This document shows, in pieces, positions 21,398 through 64,000 of a DNA stretch of 64,000 nt (the first letter of the stretch is position 1; each line of letters opens with the position of its first letter). A model generated the notes under the pieces. It was not told the DNA's origin. It made no database searches and saw only the letters and a list, made by a program, of their open reading frames with translations. The translations under genes were made by a program, and so were the position numbers. This stretch comes from Tridacna crocea (lineage: Eukaryota; Mollusca; Bivalvia; Cardiida; Cardiidae): NCBI GenBank assembly GCA_943736015.1, contig OX031063.1, positions 33,634,172 through 33,698,171 of the forward strand, read 5' to 3'.

Positions 21398-21625
21398 TTA
21401 ACCCTTTCCCAAACAACAAATTTTGGACTCTTCCAAGCTGAAAGAGTTTGCAGACGACAATTTTAGATTTTGAGAAAATGGCAGGAAGTTCTCAAAAAGG
21501 GTAGGAAACACTGTGGGAAAAGGAGAAATTGCTCGTTACGAGCAATTTCTCCTTTTCCCACAGTGTTTTCAAAAGACCTTTACTGCAGACACGTAAAAAC
21601 CAGGGCTTGTTTGGGAAACGGTTAA
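21398..21625 (+). mobile_element. P element, subfamily D, complete
   Basis: TTAACCCTTTCCCAAACAAC to TTGGGAAACGGTTAA; perfect hairpin around TGCTCGTTACGAGCA. Confidence 0.8.
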
Positions 21626-30662: not shown

Positions 30663-30745
30663 TGGTTTTAATGAAAATTTCTAGCGAACTGTACAATTTT
30701 ATGCTTTCGACATTTTACGGGTAAGGAAAAAAAGGTACCACTTAC

Positions 30746-36700: not shown

Positions 36701-38147
36701 TATTAACAGAGTTTTCCTCTTCGGAGTCGTCTTTTAAAGTTATATCTGTATCCGTGTCACTGTCCTCTGCACTTGCAGTTTCTGGTTCTTCGACTATTAC
36801 TGAATCGGGTTGCTTCCAACCTAAAACATGAGAACCAAAATGTGAAAGACTTACAGAGGAAGTCGATAGTGGAGGGCTTTTTAGGGAACCGTCATCTATT
36901 TCCCACTCTCCACTGCCGCTGAGAATATCGTCACCACTCTCCCAGCCATAGTCTTCTGGAATAACAAGTGCTCTCCTAGCTTGCACCGTCTGGTAGATCG
37001 GGACCGTGTTATCTAAATTAATGTCCCATTCATCGGGATCAAAACCGAGACGAGAAAGGTCAAAGTCAGTTCTTGATCCTGGTCGCGGGGAAATTCGAAA
37101 CATGCTGAGTGGATCAGGTGAGGCGGAAGACAGACCACTATATCCTGATAATGAAGAGGGGGTTGGCGACGGCGCTTCTATGACTGGCGATAAGATAAAA
37201 CCATAACGATCTCTGCGGTCAGCGAATCGTTCAACATATGTCTCGTCCATGTAATTCAGGTCCAGTGCATTTATAATTGCCTCGAATTCCTCCTCCACTT
37301 CTCTATCAAATTGTTCTTTATCTAAAACACATTCTTCATTTTTCATCTGCTTGTCAGTCGAAATGTCAATGATTGGTTCTCTCTCTATTTTTACATGAAT
37401 TTCTGTTTGGGAGCTGCTCTGAGCATCAGGACGGACTTCTGTCACACTGCTTTCGTTCTTAATGTCTTTCCTCACACATTGTTCCGATACTGTATGAATA
37501 TTATCATTTTGACCTTTTTCGTCGTTGCTAATCTGTTTTGTTTCAGTTTCAAAGGAAGGTTGACTCGACCTTGGGAGAGGTGGAGGCGTTTCCGGTCTAC
37601 ATAGTGAAGGTGGCTTTGTGTTAGGTAGTGGGGGAGGTATGTCCTCGTCTTGAGTAAAATTTACATTTTTCCTGTTTGTTAACGTCACTGTTTCATCGCC
37701 ACTTGCATTTTCAAAACTCAGCGGAGATGACATTGAAGAAATAAGATCGGGTAAGTCATTACACAAACCAGAATGTGGACTGGAATCGGGCTTTTCAACA
37801 TCAGTTTTTGTAATGCTTTTTTCAGTTTGTGTCATTAATGAATTAGCAAACGTCTTCTTATCTGCTTCGAGTTTGTCATCATCAGTTTTGTTAAACTTTC
37901 TCCATTGCAATTCCCTTTCTCCGGGAGACTTACAGCTGTTATCCGAGTTATCGATATCGTATCCATGATCCCACAGAAGATTCTGGCGGGGCGTGGGCAG
38001 TGAACTTATGGACTCAGTACTTCCGAAACATCCTGTAGTGTTGAATGAACTTTCAGATTCCTGGTCAGATTCTGGGGTTGAGAGGTCGTTTTGTTCCACT
38101 GGTGCGTCGTGCTGTGTTGCAGTCGACTCACTGCCATAGGTTGTCAT
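30746..38147 (-). CDS. Giant acidic, low-complexity protein, main coding exon (about 2467 residues)
   Basis: I do not recognise the family. The frame is open without a stop from the ATG at 38147 to beyond the donor. The exon is bounded by an acceptor (TTTCAG, exon base 1 at 38160) and a consensus donor GTAAGT at 30745-30740; ignoring the donor adds only 15 intron-coded residues before a stop at 30699. The donor leaves phase 1. The ATG has a purine at -3, but no stop lies between acceptor and ATG, so coding could begin in an earlier exon. The protein is rich in Ser, Glu, Asp, Asn and Thr and is probably mostly disordered. Visible islands: PPPLP-type proline motifs near residues 172 and 191 (candidate SH3/WW/EVH1 ligands), a basic stretch near 990-1030 ending in KKGFVQQLSDLFTKG, a proline-rich PPIFVPPPPV segment near 2187, and an NPLY motif near 2419 that resembles a PTB-domain ligand. 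No signal peptide or membrane helix is seen. A scaffold or cytoskeletal role is only a guess. Confidence 0.9.
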
Positions 38148-43265: not shown

Positions 43266-44399
43266 ACTATCGAAAATGAATCATGGAATAACGAATACAA
43301 CAGGAACTAAAAAAAAGAAATGCCACTGATCGGTACAAAATATAATTTAATATATCTAAAGTCAAAATATAAATCTCAAATCTTGACAACATATAATGAT
43401 AAACGAAAATTATTGAAATATGAATTCATATTTCTTATTAGTGCATACTTGACTAAGTCAACTATCATCCCTCAGTTTAACCACAGCCAGCCAACATTCA
43501 TTCATTCATTCATTCATTTGTTCGTCCACATAAATTATGCTTCGTTCTAAAAAGATTTTTTTTCACACATCCATCATTCATTATTTTACCTTTGTTCATT
43601 TAGGCGACATATAGGCCCATGGGGCCGGGTGTTGAAATTTCATATTCTATTTGTAGAATTTTCATGGTATAAAACATGTCACTATAGTGACAAAAAAAAA
43701 TACTTACTATAAACACAGTATGATTAAATTGAACTTAACTCGTTATCAAACCGCTGAATATGTTACACAATTACAATTAAATTCATTTACAGACAACAAA
43801 TTATCTGAACATTTCAAAAGCCTTTCCCTCAAGATAGTTAAAACTAGATCGTTTGGTAACGGCAGAATCAAAATGATAAAACAACAATGATACAGTACAG
43901 GACATAGAAAACACGGCAAATTAGGGTATTTGGTTAAAATATCTTCAATATCTGACAAAAACCTAATCACAGGGATAAAGCCAACGATGAAATTGGGGTA
44001 AATGATTGTATTTAAAATGATAACACAAGCGGTATTAAAATATGAAAACTATTCTCTGCATATACAGGATTTCAAAAAATGGGGCATAAAATGGCATTTG
44101 AGATAGACTTCATAAAAAAACCAAGGTGTCAGTTAACGAAATTATGTCGGGCTTGATAACAGTTTTTCTCGACGATTTCAAGTAAAGTAGCATCTCAAAG
44201 GTCAACGAATGTTAGATTTTATTTATCACATATCTATATCTCGAGGATGATAGTTCATATTATGAAAAAAACAGGCTTACACGTAAATGTGTTTTGAAAT
44301 TTACTTAAATAAGATCTAAAGGGTTCTGCGGCAGGTATGTAGGCTACGTCTCGAAAGGAATAGGTAAAGCTGACACATACCAAGTTAATATTATATTTG

Positions 44400-44883
44400 A
44401 GCCATGGTCTGTGAAAAGGGAGCTTAACCCTTTACTCCATAGATACTCATCTCGACGCATTGCTTGCAGGAGCCTTTGGAAAACATTGTGGCAAAAGGTG
44501 AAATTGCTCGTGACGAGCAATTTCACCTGTTGTCACAATGTTTTCTATGCCATCAGAAGGTGTCATATACACATAAGAAACGACTTTATCCTTGCTGTTA
44601 TTTAGGGTCAATTAGAGATAGCATAGAAATGCTTCATGGGGTAAAGGGTTAATGCATCTCCGTGGTCCATGGTATACCAGGCAAGCCTTCACACATCTAA
44701 GGATCCATAATGGTAACATTATTTTTATAACCGATTAATTCTTAAGTAGACTGGTCCTTTGACATACAGAAAATTGACTTATAGTAAAAAGTTTTCGGCC
44801 CAGCTCAGCCTGCACAGACTGAGCTAGGTCGACACTTTTGCATATGCATTAAGCCCCCTTTTCACAAAGCATGGCTCATTCAC
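44400..44883 (+). mobile_element. R element carrying a P element in its TTAA
   Basis: GAGCCATGGTCTGTGAAAAG to TTTCACAAAGCATGGCTCAT; the R part is split at 44424-44652. Confidence 0.8.
44424..44652 (-). mobile_element. P element, subfamily C, inserted in the TTAA of an R element
   Basis: TTAACCCTTTACTCCATAGA to TGGGGTAAAGGGTTAA. R sequence before (GTGAAAAGGGAGC) and after (TGCATCTCCGTGG) joins through one TTAA, as in empty R copies. Confidence 0.85.
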
Positions 44884-45508
44884 GGATAATTTTAAGAAAT
44901 GTTGTGTTTTTTCTTGTTTATCATCGTTTTTGGTGGTTAATTTCAAAGGGCAATCTAGGTCCACGATCTTTTAAAAACGAGGCTAGTAACTACAATCTTT
45001 GAACAATGAAGACGTCATTTACTTAGCTGAAAACAGGTGTAACATAAGAAAAGTCTTGATAAATCTTTTTCCTACCGAAAACGAGGTTAGTTACATGATA
45101 ATAATCTACAAGACGAATGGAGACTTGTAAGTTTAATAAAAGTTGTTTGAAAATAGTACCAATAATGAACATAACACACTTATACGATATTCTTGTCTTT
45201 CAACATACATGTACAGGTATTATCAGAACTCATCGTTATACAGTGAACAGAAATTTGATATAAAAGATCGCCTCAACAGCTATAGTCAAATCTAAGAATG
45301 GGGGCTTACTTGAATCCCAAAATACAAAATTGGCAGAATACATTCTTCTCTTTCTGTTCTAGCTGACTTGTCGATATCCGGAAAAGCTATCTAATTTATA
45401 ATCTCTGTAAATAAGCCAATATCTATGCGTTTTAAAGGAAGCTTTCTGGATTATCATTTCACCAAACTTCAAAAATAATATATCACCGAATATAGAAAGA
45501 CGATAGCC

Positions 45509-45690
45509 GGTGTAATGCAGAGAAATGAACCTTCCCTACAAAATGACCCATGGACCATTTCCCTACGTGGAGGAATGACCCGGGTCATTATTCTACGTAG
45601 AGAAATAACCCCAGAGTCATTAATCTACGTAGAGTAATGACCCATGGGTCTTTTTATAGGAGAGGATCATTTCTCTGCATTACACCGGCA
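45509..45690. mobile_element. Palindromic MITE with CTACGTAG modules
   Basis: Terminal inverted repeats GCCGGTGTAATGCAGAGAAA / TTTCTCTGCATTACACCGGC. Inside, CTACGTAGAG/CTACGTGGAG next to AATGACCC repeats three times, and ATGACCCATGGACC is mirrored by ATGACCCATGGGTC. Confidence 0.72.
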
Positions 45691-46478
45691 ACTCATCGGT
45701 AAAGAAGAAAGACAAAAATAAAGGAAAATATTTGCAACGGTATTACCTATATGCCAACACTTCAAAATCTTTGCAGACGACATACGAAATGTAACTTAAA
45801 TGCTTGAATTTGCCTTTGAATACAAACATCATAGAAAATACGGATTACCAAGATGTCAGGATTTTGCCCTTTTCTTACATAGTTTTTTCAGGGTACGTTA
45901 ACAAGGGCATTGTAAGGCAGACAGACGGACATGTTTTAATTGCTCAAATTCACACAATATAAATACATGAGCCACAATAGCATTGGCAAATAACATAAAT
46001 GACACAAGCATAAATAGTGACAAGAGAGAGGTAGGTGAAAGAATTGGAGAATTAGTTAAAGGGTCAACGGAAAAATGATTGGAAACCACATTCTACTCAC
46101 TGTATAGATAGGTAGGCATAATCTAATAGTGAGACGTGATGTCTGGAGTCGTCCTTGGTGGGAGGAAAGGAGAGTAAAATGTTGTATTAAATGTCGCTTG
46201 TAACATCCAGTTACAGCTGCATTTTCAAAAAAGAGTTTCAAAGGCCACCTTGAGATGTTAAAAGAGTTATGGGTTGAATATCATAATAAATTATTCACTT
46301 TTCAATCCAAGTATTCACATGCAATACAACCTAGTCATCAAAACATATTTCGATTCAAAGTTTATAATTATATACAGTTAAAAACAAACGCTTTACATGG
46401 AACAAAGAAATACGTTGAACAGTTGCATTTTAAGTGTTATCCAAGCAAAATACATATACATTTGGTGTATTTTGAGTC

Positions 46479-46684
46479 TTAAGCCTTTACCACACGACAA
46501 GATTTTAGACCTGTCCGAATTGAAAGCATTTGGCTCATATGAAACGAGTTTTCTTTGATAGGGTAGAAAACATTGTGGGAAAAGGAGAAAATGCTTGTAA
46601 CCAGCATTTTCTCCTTTTCCTACAATCTTTTCATAAGCCATCTCTTTCAGGGGCAGTAAAAGTCATTTTGTGGTCAAGGGTTAA
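46479..46684 (+). mobile_element. P element 21 nt after the membrane-protein stop codon
   Basis: TTAAGCCTTTACCACACGAC to GTGGTCAAGGGTTAA. If the transcript runs on, its 3' UTR carries the hairpin. Confidence 0.75.
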
Positions 46685-46704
46685 TGCAACTTGCAACCGA
46701 TAAC

Positions 46705-46841
46705 TTAGCTTCTGCTTCTTCGCCGTCTTCGACAAACACAAACAACGACCACAAAAGCTATAACAACCAAGCCAGGTGAAACAGCAATGGAGATGATGTG
46801 CCACTTTTTAAGTCCTTTGTGATCTTTTTTGTCTTCGTCAC
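46705..46841 (-). CDS. Membrane protein exon 9: transmembrane helix and cytoplasmic tail
   Basis: Acceptor TTTTTTTATGTTAG; TAA at 46707-46705. Encodes an acidic/basic linker (GDEDKKDHKGLKKW), a helix of about 22 hydrophobic residues (IISIAVSPGLVVIAF and VVVVCVC), then RRRRRSRS and stop. The positive-inside charge predicts type I topology. The tail is too short for a signalling domain. Confidence 0.88.
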
Positions 46842-49800
46842 CTAACATAAAAAAATAGTTATTTTATTTAAAAAAAAATCACCTTTATTATGTTATTTGA
46901 GTTTCGTTTAAATTTGCAGGCGTTTTCAAAATGGAACACGTCTGAAATTTTGCCACAAAGAGTTAATTAATTCCATTACCCATTTAAGATTATTACTGCC
47001 AGGTGAAACCAGTATTTTCACGATGTAATGCGATTCCAGTTGGCTTGCAACATGCAAATAGAAGCATTTGGACATTTTCGTAACGTGTCATCTCGGATCA
47101 GCCTTTACGACTACATTAGGTTTTGTTCATCAGTAGACTGGCCCAAAACAGAAAATTACATAAATACGGAAAGTATCGTTTCGGACTAGCACAGGCTGAT
47201 CCGAGACGACAATTAACGCAAATGTCCGAATGCCCCCTTTCACGTGTTGCAGACCATTTCACTCGTGCGCTGTGAAAAGGAGTTCAGTGCATCTACAAAA
47301 AAGTATCGACTCAGGTCCACCAGCAAACTTTTCACTATTGGTAAATTTTCTGAATTCGTAAGGAGCCGTCCACCTCACAATTCAGTCTGCTGTGAGAGAG
47401 GTTGGATTTTATTGACCCATAATTATGAAATGACTTGCTTTGTACAGTGCATCACATTGATGCTTTAAACCTCCCTTTTCTATATATAGCGATGCTCATT
47501 TGTTTGATGTATTTGACTTTGGCACAAATCAACATGGAATTACCTATTTTGAATGGGCGGGGCTGAACCTTTCCTTCACATCCATTATTTTGTAAACCTT
47601 AAGTCTATCAACTTTATGTGAAATTTGAATGATTTCAACAATGAGTCATTTTACGAATTTATAGAAACGTAATCTCATGGCTGTAATGGTAGGACAATCA
47701 AACAAGAAATGAACCTTATCTTCAACGGAGTCTTTCGGAAATAACAGATTTCTGAGAGAGATAAATATGTTTTCAAACAAGATATGCTCAATACATTAGA
47801 CTAAATAATTCCTAAGGTGGTCACTCTATTTGTAATATGATGACAAAAGATAAGGTAAATGTTAAGCATTACAAACCGATTTTCTGACATGCACTTTGTT
47901 ATAAGATACCGGTAAAACTGTAGCTGGGCTCTATAAATCATTCCAAAATATGCAGAATTGTGAGCCAGTGGTGTCAAGTTCGATTAGCGGCTCGCCAAAA
48001 CTCATTTCGAAGAAGAATGATAGTTGATGATAGTAACTATGACATATTCAATCCTCTGTTATCGGTAAGCATTTTTGCAGCTGTTTATGCCAGAAAGTAG
48101 CTAATGCGTTGGACAGAAAAACATACTAGTTACTGGTACAAATCCTGGACAGTATGAATTCGTATACTAGTCGCAGCGATTTGAATCGAATGAAATTGAA
48201 AAAAAAAACATAAAGACAGGAAGCAACAATCTTGACCTGTAACTTCATCAAAACTAGAAAAAAAAAAGCTGAATGGAAAGCATACTCACCAGGGCAACGG
48301 ACTGTCAGAGAGAAAATTGGAAAATACAATTACTATACATCAACACTGTCAGTTAAGTTGTGTGCATAATATGTGTACATTTTATGTAACTAGTGTAGAT
48401 TGAGCGATTTCCGGCCAAGTATGGCCGACGAAGTCCTTTACCAGGAAATATCAATATGCACTCCTATCGGTATAAACAGTATCATCTTTTAAATGCTCAT
48501 CCATTCTAACTTTGATCATTTCTCTTCAAAGCAAAATAAATTGTTAAATGTTTCCTTTTTGCCTTCATAAAGACATTCCTATACCTATTGAAATGTGTCT
48601 CATTATCTATTTAAAGGCAATGAACATCTATTTCAAAGCGGTCTTATACATATTCAAAGGCGTTTCTACACCTATTTGAATGCATACCTACCCCTACTAA
48701 AAAGTTTTTTCTATACCTATCTAAAGACATTTCTTTACTTATTTAAAACATGTTCCTTCCGTTACCTATTTTTATATCTATATAAAGATGTTTTATACTA
48801 TTCAGTTGTTATCCTGTATCATTTTTCACGTATTCCAAAATTATTGAAACAATTTCCTATACCTCTGTCAAAGACTTTCCTCACTTTTCTTAATCTTTTT
48901 GAAGGATTTCTTTATTTAACTAAATGCATCCCTGTACCTATCTAAAGGCCCTCCTACATCAAGGATTTCTTACACAAGTTTCAAGACATTCCTATACTCA
49001 TTTGAAGGCATTCAAAACGAATGAGTAGATTCGAAATGGAAGTTGCATTTTTCGAACCACAAAACAACGGAATTAACTACTCTCTGGGATATCACCTTAA
49101 GATGGTCCAAACACTTTTAGGTTCAATCTGAGCAGACCTATAAAATAATGCAATATTCTAATATATTGAGCAACGATCCTCAAAAACTTGGATTTAAGTA
49201 GTCTGCTTGATTTGAACACAATGTGAATTAACAATAAACGGAAAATATCTAGAGACTTGTACTTACAGTTTACCGAATTTATGATAAGCATGCCTATTTT
49301 GTTCCCTCGATGGTCAACCGGGATATGGAATGGCGTCTGACCAGGCTGGCATCTCATGGGGGCAATCGACATGTGTTTGCCATCTTTGTCTGATACCTGA
49401 GTTGAAAAATGATCAATATCTAATCTTTATGATGGAGCAGTGTTTTTGATTTCATGTATAAGCTATGTGACCTCTTTAAAGCATGACTTATTCACACAAC
49501 AAATCAATCCTGACACATTAGGGTATAGTCGGGGAATTTTCCATGAAAATAAAAATTGGATAGATCTTTTATGTGGTCCATGTTTACAACCACGTACAAC
49601 TCTGACCGTATCGCATAAATCATAAACTTCCCAAGTATCTGAATTGAAAAGTCTATTCTTCTAACCGAAAAGACTGTCCAGATATTAAAATCCAAATCTC
49701 AATAGTCACAAAATATCGAAGCGTATACATGGAGAAGAAGGCTTTTGGAGAAAAAACGCCAAAATGCTGTTAAGCTGCATTTTCTCTTTTATCAACTATG

Positions 49801-52800
49801 TTTTCAAACCTTTCAAACTCACAGCTCAATATTAGTGCAACACTTACTTTACTGACTGGAAATCTTAACAGTAGGAAAAGGTAAAGAAGGGTTAAACAAA
49901 GGATTTTTTGACTGTAATTCTTTATCTGGACAGGAGGAAGAATTATTCAGCAGAGTAAGATATAGAGGATACATGTGTATTTGTTTATTTCCGTGAAAGA
50001 TCCAAAGTCATCAAGTGTAGCCTACATCATACATAATCTTTTCATGAGTGGTCCAGTCAGTCGCGGGAATATTACCGATGATGTTTACTGGATGAAATAA
50101 ATTTCGATCTTTCACAGAAAAAAAAAATCCAACTGTTTTCGCCTTCAGTTGGAAAGTTAGAAACAGTGAAATAGGTATTTTTCACTAGTCTGACATTGAA
50201 GTATCATACCATATTTCACATTTATTTCTTAACCTCTAGGCTGAGAGCGAATTGCTGACCTTTTGCAGACAGTATAAATCAAGATCAGACTGCACAGAAC
50301 GTGCAGTCTGATCTTGGATCTACACTGTCTGATAAAATGATACTATTCCACAAAAATGTATCTTTAAAATAGCAATAATGTGGGTTTCTACAATCAAAAT
50401 GTAAAAAGTCAGTTTAGTTTTTTAGCAGGATAAGGGTTTATAAACTTCAGAAAGCAATTATACCCACCACACATGAAATCCGGAATGTTGAATTATTATC
50501 AACAGTATCATCGTGGTTGTACACGTAGCTGTAGTAGTAGCTGCCTATCTTTTCACTTGTAAGACAAGACAATGATCCATTGGCTGAAAGAAATGAAGCT
50601 CTTGTGTTTTGTTTGAGATGAAACAAAATTAATATAGGTGGATTAATAGGTGGATGAATAGATGGGTGGAGGGACAGACGGATGGGCTGCCGGGTGGATA
50701 AATGTATGGGTTCAGTATGGGCGGATGGCAAGCTGAACAAATGAATGAATGAATATTCTCAGACCCAATGAGTTTGACACCAGTTTTTATTTCTCTTCAG
50801 AGTTTAAATGTGAAATTTTCCAGGCATCTTTCGATTCATAGGATCGCACAGAAATTGAACGGTTAAAATGTTAAACAAATGGTGATAATTTTGATTCGTC
50901 CATATTGAAAGCTTTTCCAGAAAACACACCTACTGTGCCTTAAATGGTGAGACTTACCTGTAATTTAGTAGATCTAGTAATGAACCTTGTAAATAGATGA
51001 AACGATTGTTATCTACATTGTCCACGTGCCAAAATGTTTTCAAAGGCTTTCTTCACCAGGCTCGTTAGAACACAGACTTACTAAGTAAAGGGTTTACTTA
51101 CCGGAGTATGCGACAGGTAAAGAGCAATCCGATGACTTCAGCCACAGACTGGTTTTATTTGTACAGGTGTCCAATGTTAAGTCACTTCCTCCGCATGGAA
51201 TTGTACCATTTTGCAAATAGACTGAAGACTTGAAATTGCCCAGTATGCTATGTGCACATTCGACGCTAAACTCCTTCCCCATACCTTATAAGCACAAGAT
51301 ACAAAAATACCATAATCAAATCAAATCCAGCAAAATTTTACGTTTGTATCTTTTTACTGTATCTGATTGTCTAATTTCGCATTCATCTAGCAGTTTCGGT
51401 AATAGGTCTATACATCAAATTGATTCATAATTATGGTGTTTAAAGTCGCAATCAAGATTCAGTGCAGATGCAAGCATTCAGTCACCTAGGGCAGACATCC
51501 GCGTTAATAAATATCTGTTTGTGCTTTGAAATCTTCATGACTACCTGTACCATGATGAACAACATTCAATAATGGATTGGATTACCCAATGCACCATACA
51601 ATTTGATACCATGTTTAATTATGTGTGCCGTTTTAATAACTCGTACCTCACATGTACAATGTATGTATATTGAGCGTATAAAACAAAAGTCATGTAAATT
51701 CACCTAACAGATGTTTAGCTATTTTCTTTTTGTAGTTCATGGTGACAAAAACAAAATTGAAATAAAAAAGGATTGATATGAAAATGTAGGACTTTTACTT
51801 CGCAACAGCAAAAAATGATTTTGGTAAAACAGAAGAGTTTCGTATTATGTCCCAATGCCATTAAATTGTTCACAAACGGTCACTTTCGAACGTATCAAAA
51901 TGGATTAAATGGTCAATTTTCCTATAATGAATAGTAGGTACAGAAACGAAAATATGACATGAACAGTAACTACGCAAACCTCAGCACTAACATTAGATTT
52001 GTAAAATAATAATCTAGGGTAAGTAAAGAAATCGACGCACAACCTGCTAGATTAACGAAAAGTGGACACAAAATTAAACTACAAGTCATCTTTTTTAGAG
52101 AAAAGCAGTCTTCCACGATCAAATGTACAGTGTAAATCCAGACTCAGGTTTCAGATTCTGTGCTGTCTGATCTTTATTTTCATTGCCTACAGAAGTCTTG
52201 AATGGTGCCAAGCGACTTACTGGTTAGATTACAATGAAAATTGTCATCAATTCAAGATTATCTTTGCTCGCAGCATGTATAAATCAATCCCTCTTTTATT
52301 TCACTCGTCACTTCTGGCCAACCATCTTGCCCTCGTCCATTCACAGTAAAGCAGACGGCAATTAAAAAAGAATTACGAGAGCTGCATTTAACTTTACTTT
52401 TGACCCTCGGGTGCTCGGTAATGAAAAGGACACACTTAATCGTTAAAAAAATCAAAATAATTCAGCTTCTGGCCAACCATCTTACTGTTGTCCATTCAAA
52501 GTAAAGAACAAATTGGGAAAGGCATTAATAAAAAGGAATTACGAGAGCTGCGTCCAACCTTATGTTTGACACTCGGGTGCTCGGTAATGAAAAATGACAT
52601 TGTTGATCGTGAAAAATTCAAAATAGTGCAGCTCCATCGTTGTTGTTGTGTCAGAAAATCTCGGAATAATTGAAGGAGTGGATCGTTTGAGGTAAGACTG
52701 CATATTTTTGCTTAGTCTGATCTCTGTAATCATATAAATCGTGACTGTCCCCTATCATATTGCAAATTATCCATAAAATTTAAAGGACAACACTTGGAGA

Positions 52801-55800
52801 AAGAAAAAAGAAACAGGACAAAAAGTTATAGAGAAGCCAAAAATTCTGTACCTGGGGATATCATCAAGTTGAAAATACTTCTGTCTACCACGTAACTCAG
52901 ATTACAGATGTCTGAGAATCGCCACAAATCTTCTGTTTTGGAGACAAGAACCCTCTCTCCATCGGTTAGGTTGGAAATATCTGGAAAAACATATGAAACA
53001 GCCAATTTTGAAGTGTGTAAATGGAGTACTTTTCTCTATAATTTAGTCTGTAGCAAGACTTTTTAGGGTTTTCTCCAACAATACGGAGAAAAGAGAAAAA
53101 CTAGTAATATTGTATATGTAGGTTGTCTTAAGAGACTTTGAAAAACAGGAAAATAGAAGTTGGCAGTTTTATGGTTTTTTACATGCACACTGTATACGGG
53201 CGCTGCTGTGACAAAAGAGAAATTGGTGCATTTCGAATTTCGAGTGATGAAGTATACCAAGAGGGTCATCATAATTATAACTATGGATCCATAAAATTAA
53301 TTTTGTCGAACAATTAACCGTATAATGAGGTAGACCAACTCCTTTGACATGCAGAAGATTGACTAATAGGCAGTTTCGACCCAGGTCAGTCTGCGGAATC
53401 GGCAGACCTAGGTTAATATATTTACCAGATGCAATGAATCCCCTTTTCATAGAGCATGGCCATTATGTTTGTTGATATTGGTTATGTCCTTCCTTACAAC
53501 CTCGTATTGAAGCGAGTCGACAATCATGGCACTTTGCTAAGCGAGCGCTATAGCCATTTAAGGGAAACGCCGGAGATCAGAAAGTAAAGAAAAATCCCTT
53601 ACCATGAAGTATAAAGTATCTGTATACATAAGCTGATAGCTTTTCGTATTTCAAACACAAGAAGCTGTAATATGTCTGTGTACCAACCTTGAACGTGTTG
53701 GGAGATCTGTCAAAATATAGGACAAAAAGCACCATGACAGGTTTTTAAAACTATTAGCAATTATAGTTTTGTTACTTTGCTATAATTTAGCACGACTAGC
53801 TCGCTTATTTAAGATTCCAGGGACTCAACAAACCTTGTCCGTGACGTGCCATGGTTTCTGCTAAGTGAGGAGGAGTCTGTTACCCGTGTAAGACTCATTC
53901 TATACACGCATTAAAAAGTCTTTTAACCCTTTCCCAAACGGCAAATTTTATACCAGACCAAATTAAAAGATTTCGCAGATGACAAACTAACAGTTGCTAA
54001 AAAGATGATTTTTCTATATGATAGGGTAGAAAATATTGTGGGAAAAGGAGAAAATGCTGGTTACCAGCATTTTCTCCTTTTCCCACAATGTTTTCAAAAG
54101 GCTTCTATTCCTGACCCGTAAAAACCAGGGATTGTTTGGGAAAGGGTTAAAAAGAAAGCAAAATATAGTCACGCGCTTCTGCGCGGCGACTAATGAATGA
54201 ATATCTGCTGACAGTCAAGGAAATGGAATACACTCGATAGACCTTAACACGCATTCTTCACGTAGTAATTTCTGGTGTGATTTGGGTCATCCGTGCAGTC
54301 TTTTTTATGTACCTTTCGAAATCAAACTGTTCGTTCGGTTAGTTAGACTGCTAAGCACAACTCAAGAACATCTTACTGACAGTAGAGATCAAGATCAGAC
54401 TGCACAAAATGTATACTGTCCGATAAGGTGTCCGAAGATATTATTCTATTCCCCCTCCCAATAACTTCGAAATAGCAGAAAGTACGCTCTATACTGCCCG
54501 ATAAAGTGATTCTATTTGCCCCTAAACAACTTTGAAATAGTAGAATTGTTACTTTTACTGTCGGCTTGTAAGTTTCATTTGTGATATATTAACCCATTAT
54601 ACCAAACGACAATATTTTAGACTGGTCCAAATTGAAAACATTTGCAGACGACAAATTAAAGTGACTGAAAATTTGAAATTTGGTTTGTAAAGGGTAGAAA
54701 AGATTGTGGGAAAAGGAGAAAATGCTGGTTATCAGCATTTTCTCCTTTTCCCACAATGTTTTCTAAAGGCTTCTTTCTCAGGGGCGTCAAAAGTAGGGAT
54801 TGTGTGGTAATGGGTTAAGCAGATCAAGGGTTAGTTTTTGGTGGATAACGTCATTTCCAACGTCATTGTGATGCTTTTTATTTGGTCAGTAATGATGGTA
54901 CAAAAACAGAAACGGAGAATCTAAACAATTATTAGTGTAATAAGGACAGTGAATAAAGACCAGACTATACAGATATACAAGTCTTTTCTGTGCATGAAGG
55001 ACAAAAGAGATCAGGAAATACATACATTATCTTCCGCTAGATGGGATTCTGCAAATACACATCTATCTAATTTGGACATTCTGCGTACAGAAGCGGACTA
55101 ATTTTTCAATACAACAACCGTTACTTTAAATTTCAAAATGAAATAAACGTTTACACAATAAAACGCTACCTGGCTACAGCTATGATCGGCGAGCATGTAA
55201 CCTATGCATAGTCCATTTATTTAAAAAAGCCCATTATGCTTGGGCAATAGGCTAATAGCTTCGGTATAAGCCCAACTTTTCCCAGGTATTGGGGGTGGGG
55301 GGGGGGGGGTTGAGGGGATGGGGGTGAGTGATGCGTCATAGCAGATAGGTCTAATCTTCAAAGATTATGACAGGCGCTATGACATGCGCAGACAACGGAA
55401 ATTCATTTGGTTTGGTTTAGTATTACCTATAAGCCACATAGCCGTACGTCTCAAACTTAGTCTCGTCAGCAACTTCCCACTGCTCAACTACCGTGCTGTT
55501 GACACTAAATGTCCAGTTTTTCATCTCCCACGTTGTAAAATGGACATCGCCTTTCACGCTGTCAATCCAGGAAGTATTGCGGAATCTATCTGGCACCGTA
55601 CATGCTGCATCTGAGAAAAGAGATCAATAAAGATCGAATGAAAAGGAAACGCCCTCAGAAAAAGAAATTAATTAGCCATTTTTATTTCGTATTGTTCTAT
55701 GTGTTGTGTTAATTTTTGCGATCAAAATACAAGCAAAGCGGTCTTTCACAGAATTTACAAAAACAATTCCCTGGATATAAAAAATTTAAGACTTGTCCAT

Positions 55801-58633
55801 ACTGAAGTTATTTACAAATTTACAAACAACGAATTGAATGCTTTATCGACTTTAAGTGCTAATAAAGGGCAATTACATAATGAGGTAAAAATAAACGAGC
55901 ATCATGTTGGGTTTTCGAGATTGCACAATGGAATTCACGCTGGAATTTTCCAGAGAGCTATTTTTTATCGTTGTTTGCCAATTTCATACTTTTCGAAGAT
56001 TAACCTGCCTGCTTTTATAATCACTTCCCTGTTTCAACAACAAAATACTGCAAATTTTCAAAAGTTCCTATTTGTCTGAAACATTTCCAATAGACAAAAT
56101 CTATGCCGTCTGCAAAAGGCTAACTAGGTGATTGAGGATTCCCCATTACGTCATGAATTATGGGAATTCCAGGATCAGCTGGGAATCAAAGAATGTTTTG
56201 TCTAAATATTACGCAATGTCTGAATTTCCCTTACAAGCTTGCTCATGGTTTTGTTATATACATGTAGATCCATGTTCGCATGAAGCTTTAACTTAAACTG
56301 AATCGAAGGTATAAGTGAATTTGTATCACGTAACTGCTCATATTTTCATTGTATTAGCATAACGAATTCACCTAGTATGAGACGCAGGCATAGGTTAAGC
56401 AAATTATGGTGTGGTACATGTATATGTCTGCCACGAGATACGAAATAATTATCATGATGATTTTAGAAAACTATCATAAATCAAAGTTTCCTGGAAATGT
56501 TATGTAGATATTGACAAGTTTTCTGAAAAAAGAAATCACGATAAACTTCGTTATCTAGAAAAATTTACATAGATCAGTAAATATTTCAACGTATCTCATT
56601 CGTGCACGAAACTGACATTCGAGATAAAACTTTCTTGGTGATTCAAACTGTTTCTCGATATCTAAAAATAGAAATTGAAGCAGCGATTACGTAAGATTTC
56701 TCTGTTTAAAAAGGAATCATCAAATTTTGGATGAACCGGGTAGTTTTTTACCCTACAACATGACAGTAATTTAAAATTCGAATGATTTACAATCGTAGCT
56801 TAATACGTGATTTTTTTTACCACACATGAATAGAACCGAAGTCTGATAAACAAATTTTCATTTTTTTCCCCTCAAATTTTCATTTATTTTTTCCTCTCTT
56901 AAAATTTTCTGGGAAGTTAACTTGATGTCTTTATCAATCATATCCTCTTGTTTGGTAACAACCTATAAGCTATTACCTTATATCTTTTTTTCCCTAGCTA
57001 CAGCATGATGATATTTAATATTGTGTATTTTCATGTTTGTATATGACTATAAAAGTATGTAAGTTTTTATCAATAATGTAATTCGTTCGTTCGTTCGTTC
57101 GTTCGATAAACAAAAAGACGACTCAAAATGCATCTTACGAACAACTTTTAAACTAGCAGGGAAAAGGAGAATTTATAAAATTGGAGACGAAGACGTTCCG
57201 AAACCTAACCGTATTATCTTACTATACGAAAGGGGGTGGGGTCAATAAGTTTGTAGACAACTCAAATAATTCGCAAACGAAAAGACTTAGAAAAACGAAA
57301 TTCAGCATGCTGATTTAGGTATACCTTTCAGGCTTTCTTGCAACGGAATCAAATATATTGCGTTATATTCTTAAAATGGCGGAGACGTTATAAGCAAGCA
57401 GCTCACTGTCATCAACTTCTGCCTTAAGCACGGACAGTGTTCCATCGAAATTTATGGAGACTTGCAAAAAGTCTACGGGACAAGTGTCTTTCACGGCCTG
57501 CTATATACAAACGGATAAGTCGTTTAAAAATGAACAAAGATGAACACGAAAAAGATCGTCCGGTGTCAGCAGCCTCTGACGTTAGATGTTATCGAATTGT
57601 TTGTGAAAAAAGATGGCCATGTAACTATTCGGGATATAGAAGATAAATTTGACATTTCATATGGCAGCGCCCAGGACATTCTAGTGAAAAAGTTAGGAGT
57701 ACAGCGTGTCTTAGCGAGGTGGGTGCCTTTTATTATGAGTTCCAACCAGATGGGGGATAGGATTAGTTGATGCTTGCTGGTCAGCGGTAGTTAATGTCTA
57801 TAGTGATGGGACATTCCTTTAAAAAGAATGTAAAAAAAATGTTGGAAAAGGAGAAAATGTCACTTATTAGCATTTTCTCCATTTTACACAAAGCTTATCA
57901 AAGCCTTCGTCCTAAGGTCATATAATTACTTGACTCCTTGGTTAAGGATAGATAAGAAAGTTTATAGATATGTGCGAAGATTTATCAATATTTTTACATC
58001 CCTAACATCCGTCTTGTAACCTGCATCATGAGATACACTGTTCCTGTGATAAACAGAAAATAGACCAATACCGAAGTGTTTCGGTTCAGGTCAGCCTGCG
58101 TAGACTGCGCAGCCTGAGATGGTCAGTACTGTTCGCAAATGAATGAAACCCTCTTTTTTTAAAAAACTTAAAGTTGAACTCAGCCCAACATAGACTCTTG
58201 TTATACAATTATAGGCCCTGATCATATTATTATTCTACAAGATTCAGCTGCTGATTTATAACAAATATCCCACGATACGATCCGAGCGATCCGAAGATTA
58301 CACAGCGAAACTAGCTATAAACTGTTTTTTTAAATACGTTTTAAAAATTATGTGTTTTATGGTAAAATGCGCACCTGAATTTTACCACTTTTGTAGAATA
58401 TGTAGAATATTTTATGCATTGTTTTTATGATAGTCTCTTATAATTCTGTATAGAATGGTCATGTACGTGTACTTCCATGCCTTTATACCAGTTGTAAATA
58501 TTGTTGTACATGAATAAGACTCTAATAAAGATTATTATTATTATAAGATAACAGTTTTCCTACCTGCTTTATACAGTGCACTCGCAGCAAGTTGTAAAAA
58601 TAGACAACCTCTAATTAAGTTTGAGCCGTCCAT
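46705..58633 (-). CDS. Nine-exon type I membrane protein, 354 residues (gene-level entry, introns included)
   Basis: Built by hand from splice signals. Exons on the minus strand: 58564-58633, 55427-55610, 53603-53706, 52852-52980, 51102-51284, 50468-50583, 49267-49396, 48290-48301 and 46705-46841, total 1065 nt in one open frame ending TAA. All junctions are GT...AG and phases match. The product has a signal peptide (residues 1-23), an ectodomain of about 300 residues, a hydrophobic helix at about 325-346, and a cytoplasmic tail of five Arg then SRS. Ectodomain Cys: 27, 102, 145, 172, 193, 203, 216, 230, 261, 278, 308. N-X-S/T sites include 35, 55, 61, 123, 146, 188, 205, 225 and 254. The C-x-P...NTSWxDSxKGDVxF pattern followed by two Cys-rich modules resembles metazoan ectodomain proteins that I recall under Pfam DUF7042-DUF7045; this is from memory and needs an HMM search. 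Probably a cell-surface protein; ligand unknown. Confidence 0.85.
47041..47254. mobile_element. S element in intron 8, first hairpin deleted
   Basis: TTGCAACATGCAAATAGAAG to CACGTGTTGCA. Hairpin 1 stops after its left arm, and hairpin 2 is asymmetric. Confidence 0.62.
47260..47500 (-). mobile_element. R element in intron 8, hairpin collapsed
   Basis: TCGTGCGCTGTGAAAAGGAG to TATAGCGATGCTCAT; only ACTCAGGTCCACC is left of the hairpin. Confidence 0.58.
48290..48301 (-). CDS. Membrane protein exon 8: 12-nt microexon
   Basis: Twelve bases (TCCGTTGCCCTG) lie between TTCTCTCTGACAG and GTGAGT, both strong splice signals. With the T from exon 7 and the G passed to exon 9 it encodes F-R-C-P-(G). The length is a multiple of three, so skipping keeps the frame: it would replace this segment with one codon and remove Cys308. 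Confidence 0.7.
48565..49010 (+). repeat. Degenerate minisatellite in intron 7
   Basis: Roughly 30-bp units around CATTCCTATACCTATTTAAA recur a dozen or so times with many substitutions. Confidence 0.65.
49267..49396 (-). CDS. Membrane protein exon 7
   Basis: Acceptor TTTCAACTCAG, donor GTAAGT at 49266. Encodes VSDKDGKHMSIAPMRCQPGQ, then the juxtamembrane part of the ectodomain, ending LIINSVN with phase 1. Confidence 0.85.
50266..50330. repeat. H hairpin in intron 6
   Basis: Arms GCAGACAGTATAAATCAAGA and near complement. Confidence 0.75.
50468..50583 (-). CDS. Membrane protein exon 6
   Basis: Acceptor ATTTCTTTCAG; the donor is best read as GTGGGT at 50467, giving phase 0. Encodes ANGSLSCLTSEKIGSYYYSY and ends FRISCV. 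A donor three bases upstream (GTGGTG) would remove one Val; the phase is unchanged. Confidence 0.82.
50630..50750 (+). repeat. GGAT/GGGT-rich simple repeat by exon 6
   Basis: Imperfect TGGATGAATAGATGGGTGG units just upstream of the exon 6 acceptor on the coding strand. Confidence 0.75.
51102..51284 (-). CDS. Membrane protein exon 5: Cys-rich second module
   Basis: Acceptor TGCTTATAAG (weak pyrimidine tract), donor GTAAGT at 51101. Encodes GMGKEFSVECAHSILGNF and onward with Cys at 172, 193, 203 and 216. An in-frame ATG here yields a short stand-alone ORF, but the acceptor and matched phase show it is internal. Confidence 0.86.
52309..52635 (+). repeat. Diverged tandem duplication in intron 4
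   Basis: Two copies of about 160 bp, each with CTTCTGGCCAACCATCTT, GAATTACGAGAGCTGC and CTCGGGTGCTCGGTAATGAA. Confidence 0.75.
52852..52980 (-). CDS. Membrane protein exon 4
   Basis: Acceptor GTTTTTCCAG, donor GTACAG at 52851. Encodes DISNLTDGERVLVSKTEDLW, then FSDICNLSYVVD and ends ISP with phase 1. Two N-glycosylation sites (123, 146) and Cys145. Confidence 0.86.
53198..53463 (+). mobile_element. R element in intron 3 of the membrane-protein gene
   Basis: CGGGCGCTGCTGTGACAAAA to TTTTCATAGAGCATGGCC; hairpin partly decayed. Confidence 0.62.
53603..53706 (-). CDS. Membrane protein exon 3
   Basis: Acceptor TTTTGACAG, donor GTAAGG at 53602. Encodes RSPNTFKVGTQTYYSFLCL then a Tyr-rich strand-like stretch (KLSAYVYRYFILH) and leaves phase 1. 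Continues the fold begun in exon 2. Confidence 0.86.
53923..54150 (+). mobile_element. P element in intron 2 of the membrane-protein gene, complete
   Basis: TTAACCCTTTCCCAAACGGC to TTTGGGAAAGGGTTAA; perfect hairpin and perfect outer TIRs, among the best preserved copies. Confidence 0.85.
54589..54818 (+). mobile_element. P element in intron 2, complete
   Basis: TTAACCCATTATACCAAACG to GTGTGGTAATGGGTTAA. The C-C-C-A change in the left end is matched by T-G-G-G in the right end. Confidence 0.8.
55010..55400 (+). repeat. Duplicated block A (intron 2)
   Basis: Shares CATCTATCTAATTTGGACAT-like, CAACCGTTACTTTAAATTTC-like, GATGCGTCATA and TATGACATGCGCAGACAA with 60910-61285. Ends about 25 bp from exon 2. 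Confidence 0.7.
55427..55610 (-). CDS. Membrane protein exon 2: first ectodomain module
   Basis: Acceptor CTTTTCTCAG at 55611-55620; donor GTAATA at 55426. Encodes residues 24-85, beginning DAACTVPDRFRNTSW and including the KGDVHF motif, Trp51, Trp56 and Trp68 and three N-glycosylation sites. The other two frames are interrupted or lack this pattern. Ends phase 2. Confidence 0.88.
55845..56035 (+). repeat. Duplicated block B (intron 1)
   Basis: About 190 bp closely matching 58692-58873, sharing AATAAACGAGCATCATGTTG and TTCTCGAGATTGCACAATGG-like sequence; same orientation. Confidence 0.8.
57393..57770 (+). pseudogene. Mariner-family transposase fragment (N-terminal HTH part), broken
   Basis: Frame one from 57393 reads TVINFCLKHGQCSIEIYGDL and continues to a stop at 57514. 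Another frame from 57540 reads TLDVIELFVKKDGHVTIRDI, then GSAQDILVKKLGVQRVLARW and VPFIMSSNQMGDR before a stop. This matches the layout of the paired helix-turn-helix DNA-binding region of mariner transposases (a ...FCxKxGxxxxE..., ...VRxDxxLTIRxIA..., ...LGMRKVxAxxVP pattern recalled from the family). The catalytic DD(D/E) domain is absent. Lies in intron 1 of the membrane-protein gene, antisense to it. Confidence 0.75.
57819..57950 (+). mobile_element. P element, remnant
   Basis: Hairpin around GAAAATGTCACTTATTAGC and a decayed 3' arm ending near CTTGGTTAAGG. Confidence 0.5.
58005..58160 (+). mobile_element. R element, degenerate
   Basis: Hairpin CAGGTCAGCCTGCGTAGAC with a partly matching second arm. 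Confidence 0.5.
58564..58633 (-). CDS. Membrane protein exon 1: start codon and signal peptide
   Basis: ATG at 58633 has A at -3 and G at +4. It encodes MDGSNLIRGCLFLQLAASAL and three more residues: a polar start, a hydrophobic core and small residues before the likely cleavage site. The donor is GTAGGA at 58563, leaving phase 1 (G), which joins AT of exon 2 to give Asp24. A duplicated block (58692-58873) lies about 60 bp upstream. Confidence 0.75.
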
Positions 58634-58691
58634 AATTATTACAAATTGAAGTGACCTGAAGTATATCCACTTTCTTACTAAAGGCGTTTTA

Positions 58692-58873
58692 ATTACTTTA
58701 AGTGCTTATAAAGGGCAATTACACAATGAGGTAAAAATAAACGAGCATCATGTTGGGTTTTCGAGATTGCACAATGGATTTCACGCTGGAATTTTCCAGA
58801 GAGCTATTTTTGATCGTTGATTGCCAATTTCATACTTTTCGAAGATTGCCCTGTCTGCTTTTATAATCATTTC
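58692..58873 (+). repeat. Duplicated block B' (just upstream of exon 1)
   Basis: Same sequence as 55845-56035. On the coding strand its edge lies about 60 bp before the ATG, so it may include promoter or 5' UTR. Confidence 0.8.
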
Positions 58874-59571
58874 CCTGTACAGAATTAATATTCACTCCTT
58901 CCTTATTGTAGACGAAACAAAAAGCTTGTGTGGACAGTGTAGACAAGATTAGACTTCGCAGAACATGCAGTGTAATCTACACTGCCCACTGCTTTTTTGT
59001 AGATTATGAATAAAGTACTCCCCCATCTTGCAGTTAAAGTGATGTGGCCTTTGAAAAAGTTTAAGTTTTTTTTATTCATTATTGAAAGAGTTATTACGCA
59101 TCCCACAGTAATCAAAATTTGCATCTAAACTGTATAGCAAGTGGAAAATGGGTGTAAATAATACTTCTGTGTAGAAGTCAAGCATCTCCGTCGATTCCAA
59201 ACTTTGTAAAAATATAAAATTTCAACTACTCACTATATGCTGATGTTCAAATAATTTTGATATTACTCTTCCCATTCCTGTCATCATTTTTATTATCATC
59301 ACCATTGCCAATTTCTTCTTCTACTTTTTCTTCTTCTTCTGTTTCTTATTTCAAAGGAAATCAATGTGAATTCAACAGAACGTAAAAATAATCAACCCTT
59401 CTATGATTTTAGTTGCAATTGTGGCCAATATTTATGGGTAAAGATCAGACTACATAAAACTTGCACTCTGACAAGGGTATCCTTGAAGATTTCATAATTT
59501 TGTTCCATATATCTAGACCGAAAGTGTCTATTTATCTTGGAGCTGCTAAAGGTGACTTAACGACATTTTGT

Positions 59572-59635
59572 AGACAGTTTTGATCGAGATCAGACTGCAC
59601 AGAACTTCCAGTCTGATCTTTGACCTACACTTTCC
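59572..59635. repeat. H hairpin
   Basis: TTGATCGAGATCAGACTGCA and a slightly decayed complement. Confidence 0.65.
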
Positions 59636-59675
59636 ATTAACCCTTTTGGAGCCATAGGCAAAAGAGAGTCTTTTG

Positions 59676-59743
59676 CGGATGGTATAGACCAAGATCAGAC
59701 AGCACAGAACGTGCAGTTTGATCTTTGATTTATACCGTCCGCT
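59676..59743. repeat. H hairpin
   Basis: GCGGATGGTATAGACCAAGA and complement, about 40 bp from the previous one. Confidence 0.68.
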
Positions 59744-60201
59744 AATATAGTCAGTACGATCAAAATCTTAAAATTCTAATGTACTGCAATGTATTGCAAT
59801 TACAGCCTTCAAAAGAGGTCGGCTGAATTTATTTGTTAATTTATTTTTCCCAAAAAAATATCTTTTAAATAACAAAATGTGGGTTTTATAATCGGCTTAA
59901 ACGAATAAGAGTTAAGTTTACTCGAGAGCTGTAAGGGTTAAATCTGATAAAGAAAATAGAGAAAGGGAACGCCGAATATTTTGAAAATACGCACGCAGGA
60001 TTTTCAGGGAATTTTGAAGTATATAGTATTCAACCTTGGTCGCTACTCGTAAAATTCCTTACTTTCACTTTCGGTTTCCATAAATAGAAACACTGCATGC
60101 ATCTTGTTTTCTATTGTATACATGTATGTATTATTATTTTCTGCTGTATCTATCAACGTTTTTTTTAATACGAGAATATCTTCTTGATCCTTTTCAATCG
60201 T

Positions 60202-60424
60202 TTAACCCGTTACTAGACGAATAAATGTCCACATGTCGAATTTGAAAGCATTTGCAGACGACAAATTAAATGTTGTCTCGATATACAATTTTTTTTTTCA
60301 ACGGTTAGAAAACACCATGGTAAAAGAAAATAAAAATGCTGGTCGTTAGACGTTTCTTCCTTTCGCAAGATATTTATCAAAAGCTTTTCCCTCGGTGTCA
60401 TTAAGGTCGGACCTGTCGGGTTAT
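60202..60424 (+). mobile_element. P element, degenerate hairpin
   Basis: TTAACCCGTTACTAGACGAA to CCTGTCGGGTTAT. Confidence 0.6.
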
Positions 60425-60544
60425 GATACCCTGATCATGTTTATTGATGAGAAACCAGAAGTTCATAGATTCAGACCCATGAGATATGTGAAACATATAT
60501 AAAAACAGTATAATACAGTCATGATCATTATGTAACCAACGTAG

Positions 60545-60762
60545 GTTTGACTCTTTCCGACACAAACTCATAGAATTTGACTGTTCCATTATTACATATT
60601 AAACGCAAGTTAAAAATCTGAGATTTACCTTTAGTAGAGTAGAAAACATTGTGGGAAAAGGAGAAAATGCTGTTTACAGCATTTTCTCCTTTTCCCGCAA
60701 TGTTTTCAAAAGCCTTCTTCCTCATTGTTGTTAAAATTAGGGGTTGTGTGGAAAAGGGTTAA
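60545..60762 (+). mobile_element. P element, near complete
   Basis: GACTCTTTCCGACACAAAC to GTGTGGAAAAGGGTTAA; hairpin centre shortened to TGCTGTTTACAGCA. Confidence 0.68.
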
Positions 60763-60909
60763 ACGTATTTTCTCTGTTACATTGCACAACCGAGTAAGCA
60801 AAAGTAATAGCTTAATTATACTTAGATATGAGATAGTATTTAAAAATAAACATACATGTATATACATGTATGCATAATTTGTCGTGCGTATTTTCCCGCA
60901 ATTTTACTT

Positions 60910-61285
60910 CCATGAAGTTATGCAGGATTATCTCCCGCTAGATGGCATTCTATAAATACTCATCTATCTAATTTAGGCATCCTGGGTACAGAGCCGAACC
61001 ACTTTCCTACGCGACAACCGTTACTTTGAATTTCTAACTAAAATAAACTTTTACTCAATAAAACGCTATACCTTGTGCAATTCACTCAGCTATGATCAGC
61101 GGTTTAGAGAAATCTGGAGCTAAAGCAGGTCTCATTTCTCCTCAATCGCATTGATAAAAGCTATTTTCTATATTACTACTTTATAGAGCGTAATATTACA
61201 GTCTGCCCGCTTTTGGGGCTAGTGATGCGTCATATAAGACAGTCGAATCTTCGAAGAATATATGACATGCGCAGACAATGAGTTA
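60910..61285 (+). repeat. Duplicated block A' (upstream intergenic)
   Basis: Diverged copy of 55010-55400 in the same orientation. No copy of exon 2 is found next to it. Confidence 0.7.
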
Positions 61286-61827
61286 TGGAGGTATTTTTTT
61301 CCTTAATGCCAAGCCTTGGCGTAGACAGGAAAAGTTCACAAATGAAAGTCCACTAGCTCGAAAACAACAAAGAGATACTGTGATAAAATATATAGATAAA
61401 TTGTAACCGTTTTGATTACTTTCCAATCCCTGTCACAGTGTTTTGAATACTTTATGCAGTTGATACTTACTTAATTTAAAGAAAACAAGAAAAGTTTGAT
61501 GCACAACATCAAGCACAACATCAATTGCGCCGCAAATCGGTTGTTTCTGAAATAAGGCATATTACACCATTTCAAATTGACCAAAGTAAAATTTATGCAG
61601 TAATCGGTGAGAAATGGACTGAGAAGCCCTAAACAATCCTTGGAATCTAACTAAAAACTTTTAAAAAAGCAAAAATGGTTAAGACACAATCATAGCCATT
61701 CCTCGGCGAAATTTAACATAAGTTTTATTGGAGCTATGTACAAAAGCAGTTGTCATTCGGCTAATATCGTAAGAAAATAGTAGTAAAACTAGATCTACAT
61801 TACCAAATTGATGATAAAAACTGTGTA

Positions 61828-61965
61828 TGAAACGACGAAAGTTGGTAAGAAATGATCAAAGTGAGTACGAAATAACAAAAAAATAAAAAGTATTGTCGGG
61901 TACGATTTGACTAAAAATGTACGAAATGGCCCAGGTATGAAATGATCTTATTACGAAATGACTAG
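61828..61965 (+). repeat. Degenerate GTACGAAATGACTA repeats
   Basis: Variants of TACGAAATGA recur about eight times at irregular spacing. Confidence 0.5.
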
Positions 61966-62187
61966 AAGCCGAGTAAACAATATGGCTGCCTCCATAGGTA
62001 CTTTTCAAAAGCGAAAAAAAATAGTGCCGCCGCTCATGCGGCGCCACAATAATTGCACTCTTGAAAATGTTTAGGGAAACAGAAGTGCTTCGATCAGTTC
62101 GAGTTTCTGGATTGTCTGAGTCAGAAGGCTTAATACTGTATGACAAACGGCAACATGAACCCATAAGCAAGCAACAAATCCCGAGAT

Positions 62188-62375
62188 TTAACGATTCTAA
62201 AACTTTTGAAAACATTGTGGCGAAAGGAGAAATGCTGGCAAGCAGCATTTTCTCCTTTTCCCACATTGTTTTCTACTCTTTAAGACACATTTCGATCATT
62301 CTAGCCACTTTTAATTTGTCTGTAAATGCTTTGACTTTGGGTCAGTCCTAAGTTTGTGGTTTTGTACTGAATTAA
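62188..62375 (-). mobile_element. P element, internally deleted
   Basis: TTAACGATTCTAAAACTTTT to TTTGTACTGAATTAA. Confidence 0.62.
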
Positions 62376-62555
62376 TTGATTTATACGGATCAATAAGTCT
62401 TCTGGCTATCCGTCCGTCCGTCCGTTCTTCAGTCAATAAGGCATACATTCATTATCTAAATGGACCTTTGTTTAACAAGGCACTGTAGGAAATTGGTGCT
62501 ATCCGAAAATCCAAACCAACTATTGGACGGCGTAGATTCAAAATCAGAATGGACC

Positions 62556-62783
62556 TTAACCCTTTCCCAAACGATAAATTATGGACCCTTCCAATCCGAA
62601 AGAGTTTGCAGACGACAATTTTAGATTTGGAGAAAATGGCAGAAAGTTCTCAAAAACGGTAGAAAACACTGTGGGAAAAGGAGAAATTGCTCGTTATGAG
62701 CAAGTTCTCCTTTTCCCACAGTGTTTTCAAAAGACTTCTAGTGCAGACACGTAAAAACCAGGGCTTGTTTGGGAAAGGGTTAA
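62556..62783 (+). mobile_element. P element, subfamily D, complete
   Basis: TTAACCCTTTCCCAAACGAT to TTTGGGAAAGGGTTAA; one arm mismatch in the hairpin (GAGCAAGTTC). Confidence 0.82.
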
Positions 62784-63162
62784 AATATCATGCAGTCTAA
62801 ACTTAGTCTACAGTGTCCGTGAAAGTGATTGTAATTGTACTTAAGACCTGAAGTGAATACTAGTAATTACCCGAGTGAATCATTATTTGAATTGCGCAGT
62901 TAAATGATTACTAAGAAAGAAACGCCTCAGACAGACAGACATACAGACATCAAAAGATTACATGCCAAAAGGATCAACATTGCTCCCGCTTTTAACATTA
63001 GCATGCCGGTTGTAAGTTGTAACTCTTCACTGCGTAAGTGCGCCTTCAACAGGGATTTTTTATGGTCGGAATATATCAAGATTAGACGGAGCAGGAGGTG
63101 CATTGTCACTTATTTTTGGAAAACCAGCAAATCTATCTGAACCGTTAGACAGACAGCAAGAG

Positions 63163-63202
63163 GGGTGTGTGTGTGTGTGTGGGGGGGGGGGGGGGGCCGG
63201 GG
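63163..63202 (+). repeat. (GT)n followed by a G-run
   Basis: GT units then about 17 G. Confidence 0.9.
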
Positions 63203-63448
63203 GAAGTATGATGTACATGTATGTAACTCAGTACCGCAAATTATCTATTGAAATGTCTATTTCTTTATTTTGACATTTACATATTTCAAAATTCATAACA
63301 TTGAACGAGTCTCAAAACTGTTTATTTGGTCGTAACACTGACTTGTGCAACAAAACAACACACACAATGTAGAACATATAAAAATTTTGTTGAACTTTGT
63401 CTAGTTCCAGTAAATCCAGACGAGATTTGTTATTTAAAAGTCGTTTAT

Positions 63449-64000
63449 TCATTCAGTTATGAAAGCTTTCAATCTTTGTAATATATTTTTACGAGAGTAG
63501 TTTTGGGCAGATTTCTCAACTGGAGGAGGTTTTGGCGCGATAAGTGAATCCGCATTACATATACTATCCTTTCGCGCAGAGTCTGTGTTTGATGTTTGGC
63601 AAGCCTCACTGTGAGTTGCTTTTTTCCTTATCGCTGGAAGTGGTTCCACCTTTTTCATCTTTATGACAGGACCTGTCCTCGCCTTGGCATCCTTTTTCTG
63701 TGCTTCATTAGGATCCCGTCTTCGATGTATTTTTGGCAGAACAACATAACGTTCACCAGGTCCGGTCTGCAAGTTTTGCCAGGGTTGAAACTCAGTGTTA
63801 TGTCTTTTTTTGGTTGTCGCTTCCTTGGTCTTTTGAGATTGTTCTATCTTTTTCTCCAATAGATTAATCTCGTTGATAATATTTTCATTTTCCTCGATCG
63901 TGTTTCTGAGATTATCATTGCCCATTTGCAGCATTCCGATGTTGCAGTCTTCAATACAGTTCATATCCATGACATCTCCCCGAACTTTCCAAATATCTTC
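63449..64000 (-). CDS. 3' end of an unrecognised coiled-coil protein gene (partial)
   Basis: The frame is open from the right window edge to TGA at 63451-63449 (183 residues visible). The first ATG at 63970 need not be the start, since ten in-frame codons (EDIWKVRGDV) precede it. The N-terminal part is helical and charged (NDNLRNTIEENENIINEINL then LEKKIEQSQKTKEA), consistent with a coiled coil. It is followed by a basic, Lys/Arg-rich disordered part (RYVVLPKIHRRRDPNEAQKK) and a short helical end NILQRLKAFITE. AATAAA on the minus strand overlaps the stop, and two more lie near 63323 and 63262. No family recognised. Confidence 0.7.
   Translation of the reverse strand, partial: EDIWKVRGDVMDMNCIEDCNIGMLQMGNDNLRNTIEENENIINEINLLEKKIEQSQKTKEATTKKRHNTEFQPWQNLQTGPGERYVVLPKIHRRRDPNEAQKKDAKARTGPVIKMKKVEPLPAIRKKATHSEACQTSNTDSARKDSICNADSLIAPKPPPVEKSAQNYSRKNILQRLKAFITE

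Follow-up and report, generated by a model that had tools for sequence, protein, structure and literature searches.

A probable nine-exon gene with a DUF7042 domain, predicted to encode a type I single-pass membrane glycoprotein

Whether a chain of short exons assembled by hand amounts to a real gene is the question raised by the minus strand of the window (the whole stretch of DNA that was analysed, 64 kb), on which a sequence-only reading had placed a cell-surface protein gene invisible to ORF calling. The ORF listing contains no minus-strand ORF of at least 120 amino acids in the gene region, in line with that description, and such an escape is ordinary for genes made of short exons. The rebuilt model extends from an ATG at 58633 to a stop codon ending at 46705 and comprises nine exons, with 354 codons plus the stop and no internal stop codon or frameshift. 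All eight introns begin with GT and end with AG, the junction phases are, in order, 1, 2, 1, 1, 1, 0, 1 and 1, and intron 1 measures 2953 nt from its coordinates. The exons, the matching phases and the 354-residue frame claimed for this locus were thus reproduced exactly. The splice sites of the model are mostly good (Table 1), with ordinary scores at the donor of exon 2 and the acceptor of exon 5.

Table 1 Exons of the gene model. Splice-site ranks refer to the 744 GT sites (donors) and 710 AG sites (acceptors) on the minus strand of 46000-59500.
Feature	Coordinates	Strand	Length (nt)	Acceptor rank	Donor rank	Content
Exon 1	58564-58633	-	70		6/744	Start codon; residues 1-23, resembling a signal peptide; donor in phase 1
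Exon 2	55427-55610	-	184	10/710	70/744	Start of N-terminal ectodomain module, with C-T-V-P, NTSW and KGDVHF; single open frame
Exon 3	53603-53706	-	104	23/710	5/744	N-terminal module, carrying the motif CLKYEKLSAYVYRYFILHD
Exon 4	52852-52980	-	129	2/710	42/744	End of N-terminal module
Exon 5	51102-51284	-	183	146/710	2/744	DUF7042 domain, first part
Exon 6	50468-50583	-	116	32/710	10/744	DUF7042 domain, middle
Exon 7	49267-49396	-	130	42/710	28/744	End of DUF7042 match and membrane-proximal part
Exon 8	48290-48301	-	12	40/710	3/744	Phase 1-1 microexon (FRCPG)
Exon 9	46705-46841	-	137	20/710		Stalk, transmembrane helix, Arg-rich tail and stop

The agreement of the junction phases had been put forward as something that chance cannot easily give. 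By itself it is weak evidence for a gene, because phase-compatible nine-exon chains were also recovered from 12 of 12 shuffles by a chain search that used generic splice scores, admitted exons of 9 to 220 nt and introns of at least 60 nt, and disregarded stops created across junctions. The best chains scored 38.3 to 62.2 in the shuffles, 70.0 on the real minus strand and 61.2 on the real plus strand, and the chain reported earlier scored 63.0. What stands of the argument is therefore that none of the 12 shuffles reached 63.0, and the margin is small. When codon usage was scored with the window's 2482-aa ORF (30699-38147) as training set, the exons could not be told apart from other open stretches. 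This lone ORF, on the minus strand, is acidic and Ser-rich by eye, has no Pfam match above the cut-off, and is perhaps a giant exon.

What raises the gene well above chance is a Pfam match that runs across the junctions. The whole protein matches DUF7042 (PF23069) with 36.3 bits (E 6.4e-9), above the curated gathering score of 27, which bears out the earlier lead to a poorly characterised family. The match comprises residues 172-274, encoded by exons 5, 6 and 7, and covers positions 3-99 of the 123 positions of the profile, the last 24 being unmatched. The gene is credited because this match spans exon junctions. A chance chain of open segments would be in keeping with the shuffles, every one of which yielded a compatible chain and the best of which came within a point of the chain reported earlier, but the DUF7042 match contradicts chance for exons 5-7, and we consider this explanation extremely improbable.

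The preferred reading is that the locus holds an intact animal gene whose product is a single-pass type I membrane glycoprotein with two tandem cysteine-containing modules, the second of which is DUF7042, and we regard it as probable by a wide measure. The word animal here derives from how the exons are arranged and what kind of protein they encode rather than from a match to a species. The related families DUF7043, DUF7044 and DUF7045, which had been proposed together with DUF7042, gave no row with the whole protein to E 1 or with the halves, exons and joins to E 10, in a search whose HMMER filters discard most weak matches and whose Pfam copy may lack these models.

The contribution of individual junctions can be read from the scores of partial joins. 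Exon 5 by itself gives 19.0 bits, exons 5 and 6 give 34.1 bits, and exons 5, 7 and 8 joined without exon 6 give 18.1 bits; the Pfam search returned no DUF7042 row from exon 6 alone, from exons 7 and 8, or from exons 6, 7 and 8. Exon 6 adds 15 bits only if it is spliced to exon 5, and the 5/6 junction is well supported. When exons 5 to 8 are joined (the C-terminal half), the score is 39.7 bits, compared with 34.1 for exons 5 and 6. Because exons 6, 7 and 8 give no DUF7042 row without exon 5, support for the 6/7 junction consists of this more modest increase of 5.6 bits. The profile evidence is silent on exons 1 to 4, 8 and 9, and the whole-protein score is 36.3 bits with exon 8 either in or out.

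No homologue of the whole protein, of the DUF7042 half or of the N-terminal half was found at E up to 10 among 5.8 billion protein sequences, in collections that we assume to be poor in animal sequences; the candidates sharing words with these three queries numbered 972, 12 and 25, respectively. The PDB contains no match up to E 1. NCBIfam, and Rfam searched on 44000-64000, gave nothing relevant (the NCBIfam row PVV_CTERM is weak and was set aside), and the pattern matches in 30 stretches of viral contigs yielded no confirmed case. A literature search returned no paper on the DUF7042 family or on DUF7043-7045. Tandem repeats, base composition and a tRNA scan of the window (0 tRNAs) gave nothing bearing on the gene.

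The lack of a relative in the databases searched, together with the neutral codon-usage score, would suit a non-functional relic, either a pseudogene or a partial duplicate of a DUF7042 gene. Against such a relic stand the 354 codons uninterrupted by stop or frameshift and the GT-AG boundaries of all eight introns. A tblastn search of the window, limited to at most 60 pieces with E values up to 100, also revealed no second copy: once the exons themselves and an internal motif were set aside, the best remaining piece had an E value of 0.58. On balance, we judge a relic to be very unlikely.

The less certain parts of the model are exon 1 and exon 8, the latter of only 12 nt. In the 7.8 kb that lie upstream of exon 2 (55640-63400), exon 1 is the sole candidate of 46-120 nt that combines an ATG, a hydrophobic segment and a phase-1 donor at relaxed thresholds. 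At the same thresholds, at least one such candidate occurred in 18 of 100 shuffles (mean 0.25), and at thresholds placed just under the scores of exon 1, which were picked post hoc, none occurred in 100. Relaxed splice thresholds likewise yield exon 8 as the lone microexon candidate of intron 7, against a mean of 0.087 per shuffle, and thresholds just under its own scores, again picked post hoc, gave no microexon in 300 shuffles. Exon 8 is skippable in frame: exon 7 joins directly to exon 9, with phase 1 on either side. The type I glycoprotein reading is unchanged whether exon 8 is used or skipped. A further exon candidate in intron 1, at 57366-57500, has no Pfam match and was rejected, the frame being complete without it. 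Intron 1 also contains, at 57540-57770 on the plus strand, 76 open codons that by eye are like a transposase helix-turn-helix, with weak Pfam rows for DUF2089 (14.3 bits against a cut-off of 33.4) and MarR_2 (12.2 against 27).

These uncertainties bear on a different reading of the locus, in which the core, comprising exons 5 to 7 at the least, is genuine and an end is misjoined, through another first exon or an isoform-specific membrane exon, such that the main protein would be secreted or longer. Exon 1 has only 70 nt, modest hydrophobicity and no homology support, it lies beyond the long intron 1, and a comparable first exon appeared in roughly a fifth of the shuffles at relaxed thresholds; yet it is the sole such candidate in 7.8 kb, and exon 9 brings a good acceptor, a strong helix and a stop. 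We therefore hold a misjoined end to be unlikely, and the complete nine-exon chain is retained as the preferred model.

The encoded chain contains a hydrophobic segment at either end. The C-terminal helix (residues 328-346) has a mean Kyte-Doolittle value of 2.89 and is followed by the tail RRRRRSRS, as described in the sequence-only reading; the signal peptide of that description is plausible, with an N-terminal hydrophobic stretch of only modest strength (best 11-residue mean of 1.96, from hydropathy only). Eleven cysteines lie between residues 27 and 308, and ten N-x-S/T sequons are present, of which two overlap. These features support the prediction, made from hydropathy, of a single-pass surface protein with a signal peptide, one helix and a basic cytosolic flank. 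The helix and basic tail also returned the Pfam family TMIE (PF16038) with 17.2 bits (E 0.0046), under the curated cut-off of 27; the likeness, which we take to be that of any hydrophobic helix beside charged residues, was rejected. The other Pfam rows below cut-off (Adeno_E3_CR2, F-box_4, dsrm, Med12-PQL and DUF4430) were set aside.

Whereas the C-terminal half carries the family match, the N-terminal half and the membrane anchor lie outside it. The N-terminal half (residues 25-162) matches no Pfam family above the cut-off, and its pattern of C-x-x-P, W and G is one that we take to resemble DUF7043, DUF7044 and DUF7045. A motif of 22 residues, of the form CL-x-x-EK-x-x-x-Y-x-Y-x-Y, is common to the N-terminal half (exon 3) and the DUF7042 half (exon 6), with 10 of the 22 residues identical. 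The similarity, which first came to notice in the tblastn search of the window, has a BLASTP E value of 4e-4 in a single comparison, and a match as good was found in none of 2000 shuffles of one half; the motif is Tyr-rich, and such a composition inflates matches of this type. The shared motif suggests that the ectodomain consists of two related modules in tandem. A more elaborate proposal is that the product is a compact two-module surface receptor, whose novel N-terminal domain originated as a duplicate of a DUF7042-like module, and that the 12-nt phase 1-1 microexon in the stalk is included or skipped so as to alter the membrane-proximal region (FRCPG or C); we offer it tentatively, as a rather unlikely idea.

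Scattered through the window are 27 hairpin centres in which GGGAAAAGGAGAAAATGCT faces its complement, each arm with 5 mismatches at most; they mark copies of a dispersed element, examples being 53923-54150, 62556-62783 and 21398-21625. Inverted ends similar to TTAACCCTTTCCCA are present on both sides in 11 of the 27 (up to 3 mismatches, 206-230 nt), and the element presumably resembles a MITE of a transposon with a TTAA target, such as piggyBac. The copy at 46479-46684 comes within 20 nt of the stop codon, on its downstream side, and, because of this proximity, probably lies within the 3' UTR of the gene. The first hexamer resembling a poly(A) signal is at 45940, 764 nt beyond the stop. A second short hairpin repeat, formed by AGATCAGACTGCACAGAAC and its complement, occurs at 50282, 59587, 59692 and other positions; at up to 3 mismatches, AGATCAGACTGCACAGAAC has 12 plus-strand and 7 minus-strand matches in the window.

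Two segments are found both within the gene and upstream of it. A segment of about 190 nt is present at 55842-56032, in intron 1, and at 58695-58878, about 60 nt upstream of exon 1, with 95% identity between the copies; it may be a recent duplication or a mobile element, possibly with a copied promoter region. The segment 55026-55168, in intron 2, is duplicated at 60927-61068, upstream of the gene, with 82% identity.

If the gene is expressed as modelled, the signal peptide would direct the chain into the secretory pathway, where the ectodomain modules would fold, forming disulphides and acquiring N-glycans. The C-terminal helix would serve as a stop-transfer segment, with the Arg-rich tail keeping the short C-terminus in the cytosol. 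Because a tail of about eight residues leaves hardly any room for a signalling motif, the product would be an anchored ligand-binding or adhesion glycoprotein, or a co-receptor dependent on a partner for signalling. An anchored role in ligand binding or adhesion, without an intrinsic signalling domain, is thus what the predicted topology points to.

In all likelihood, this is a real and ordinary gene, new to DUF7042, a known family to which Pfam assigns no function. The finding by itself alters no established view; it contributes one gene and its exon layout to this family, and it illustrates how a hand-made gene model can be backed, without transcripts, by profile scores that span exon junctions.
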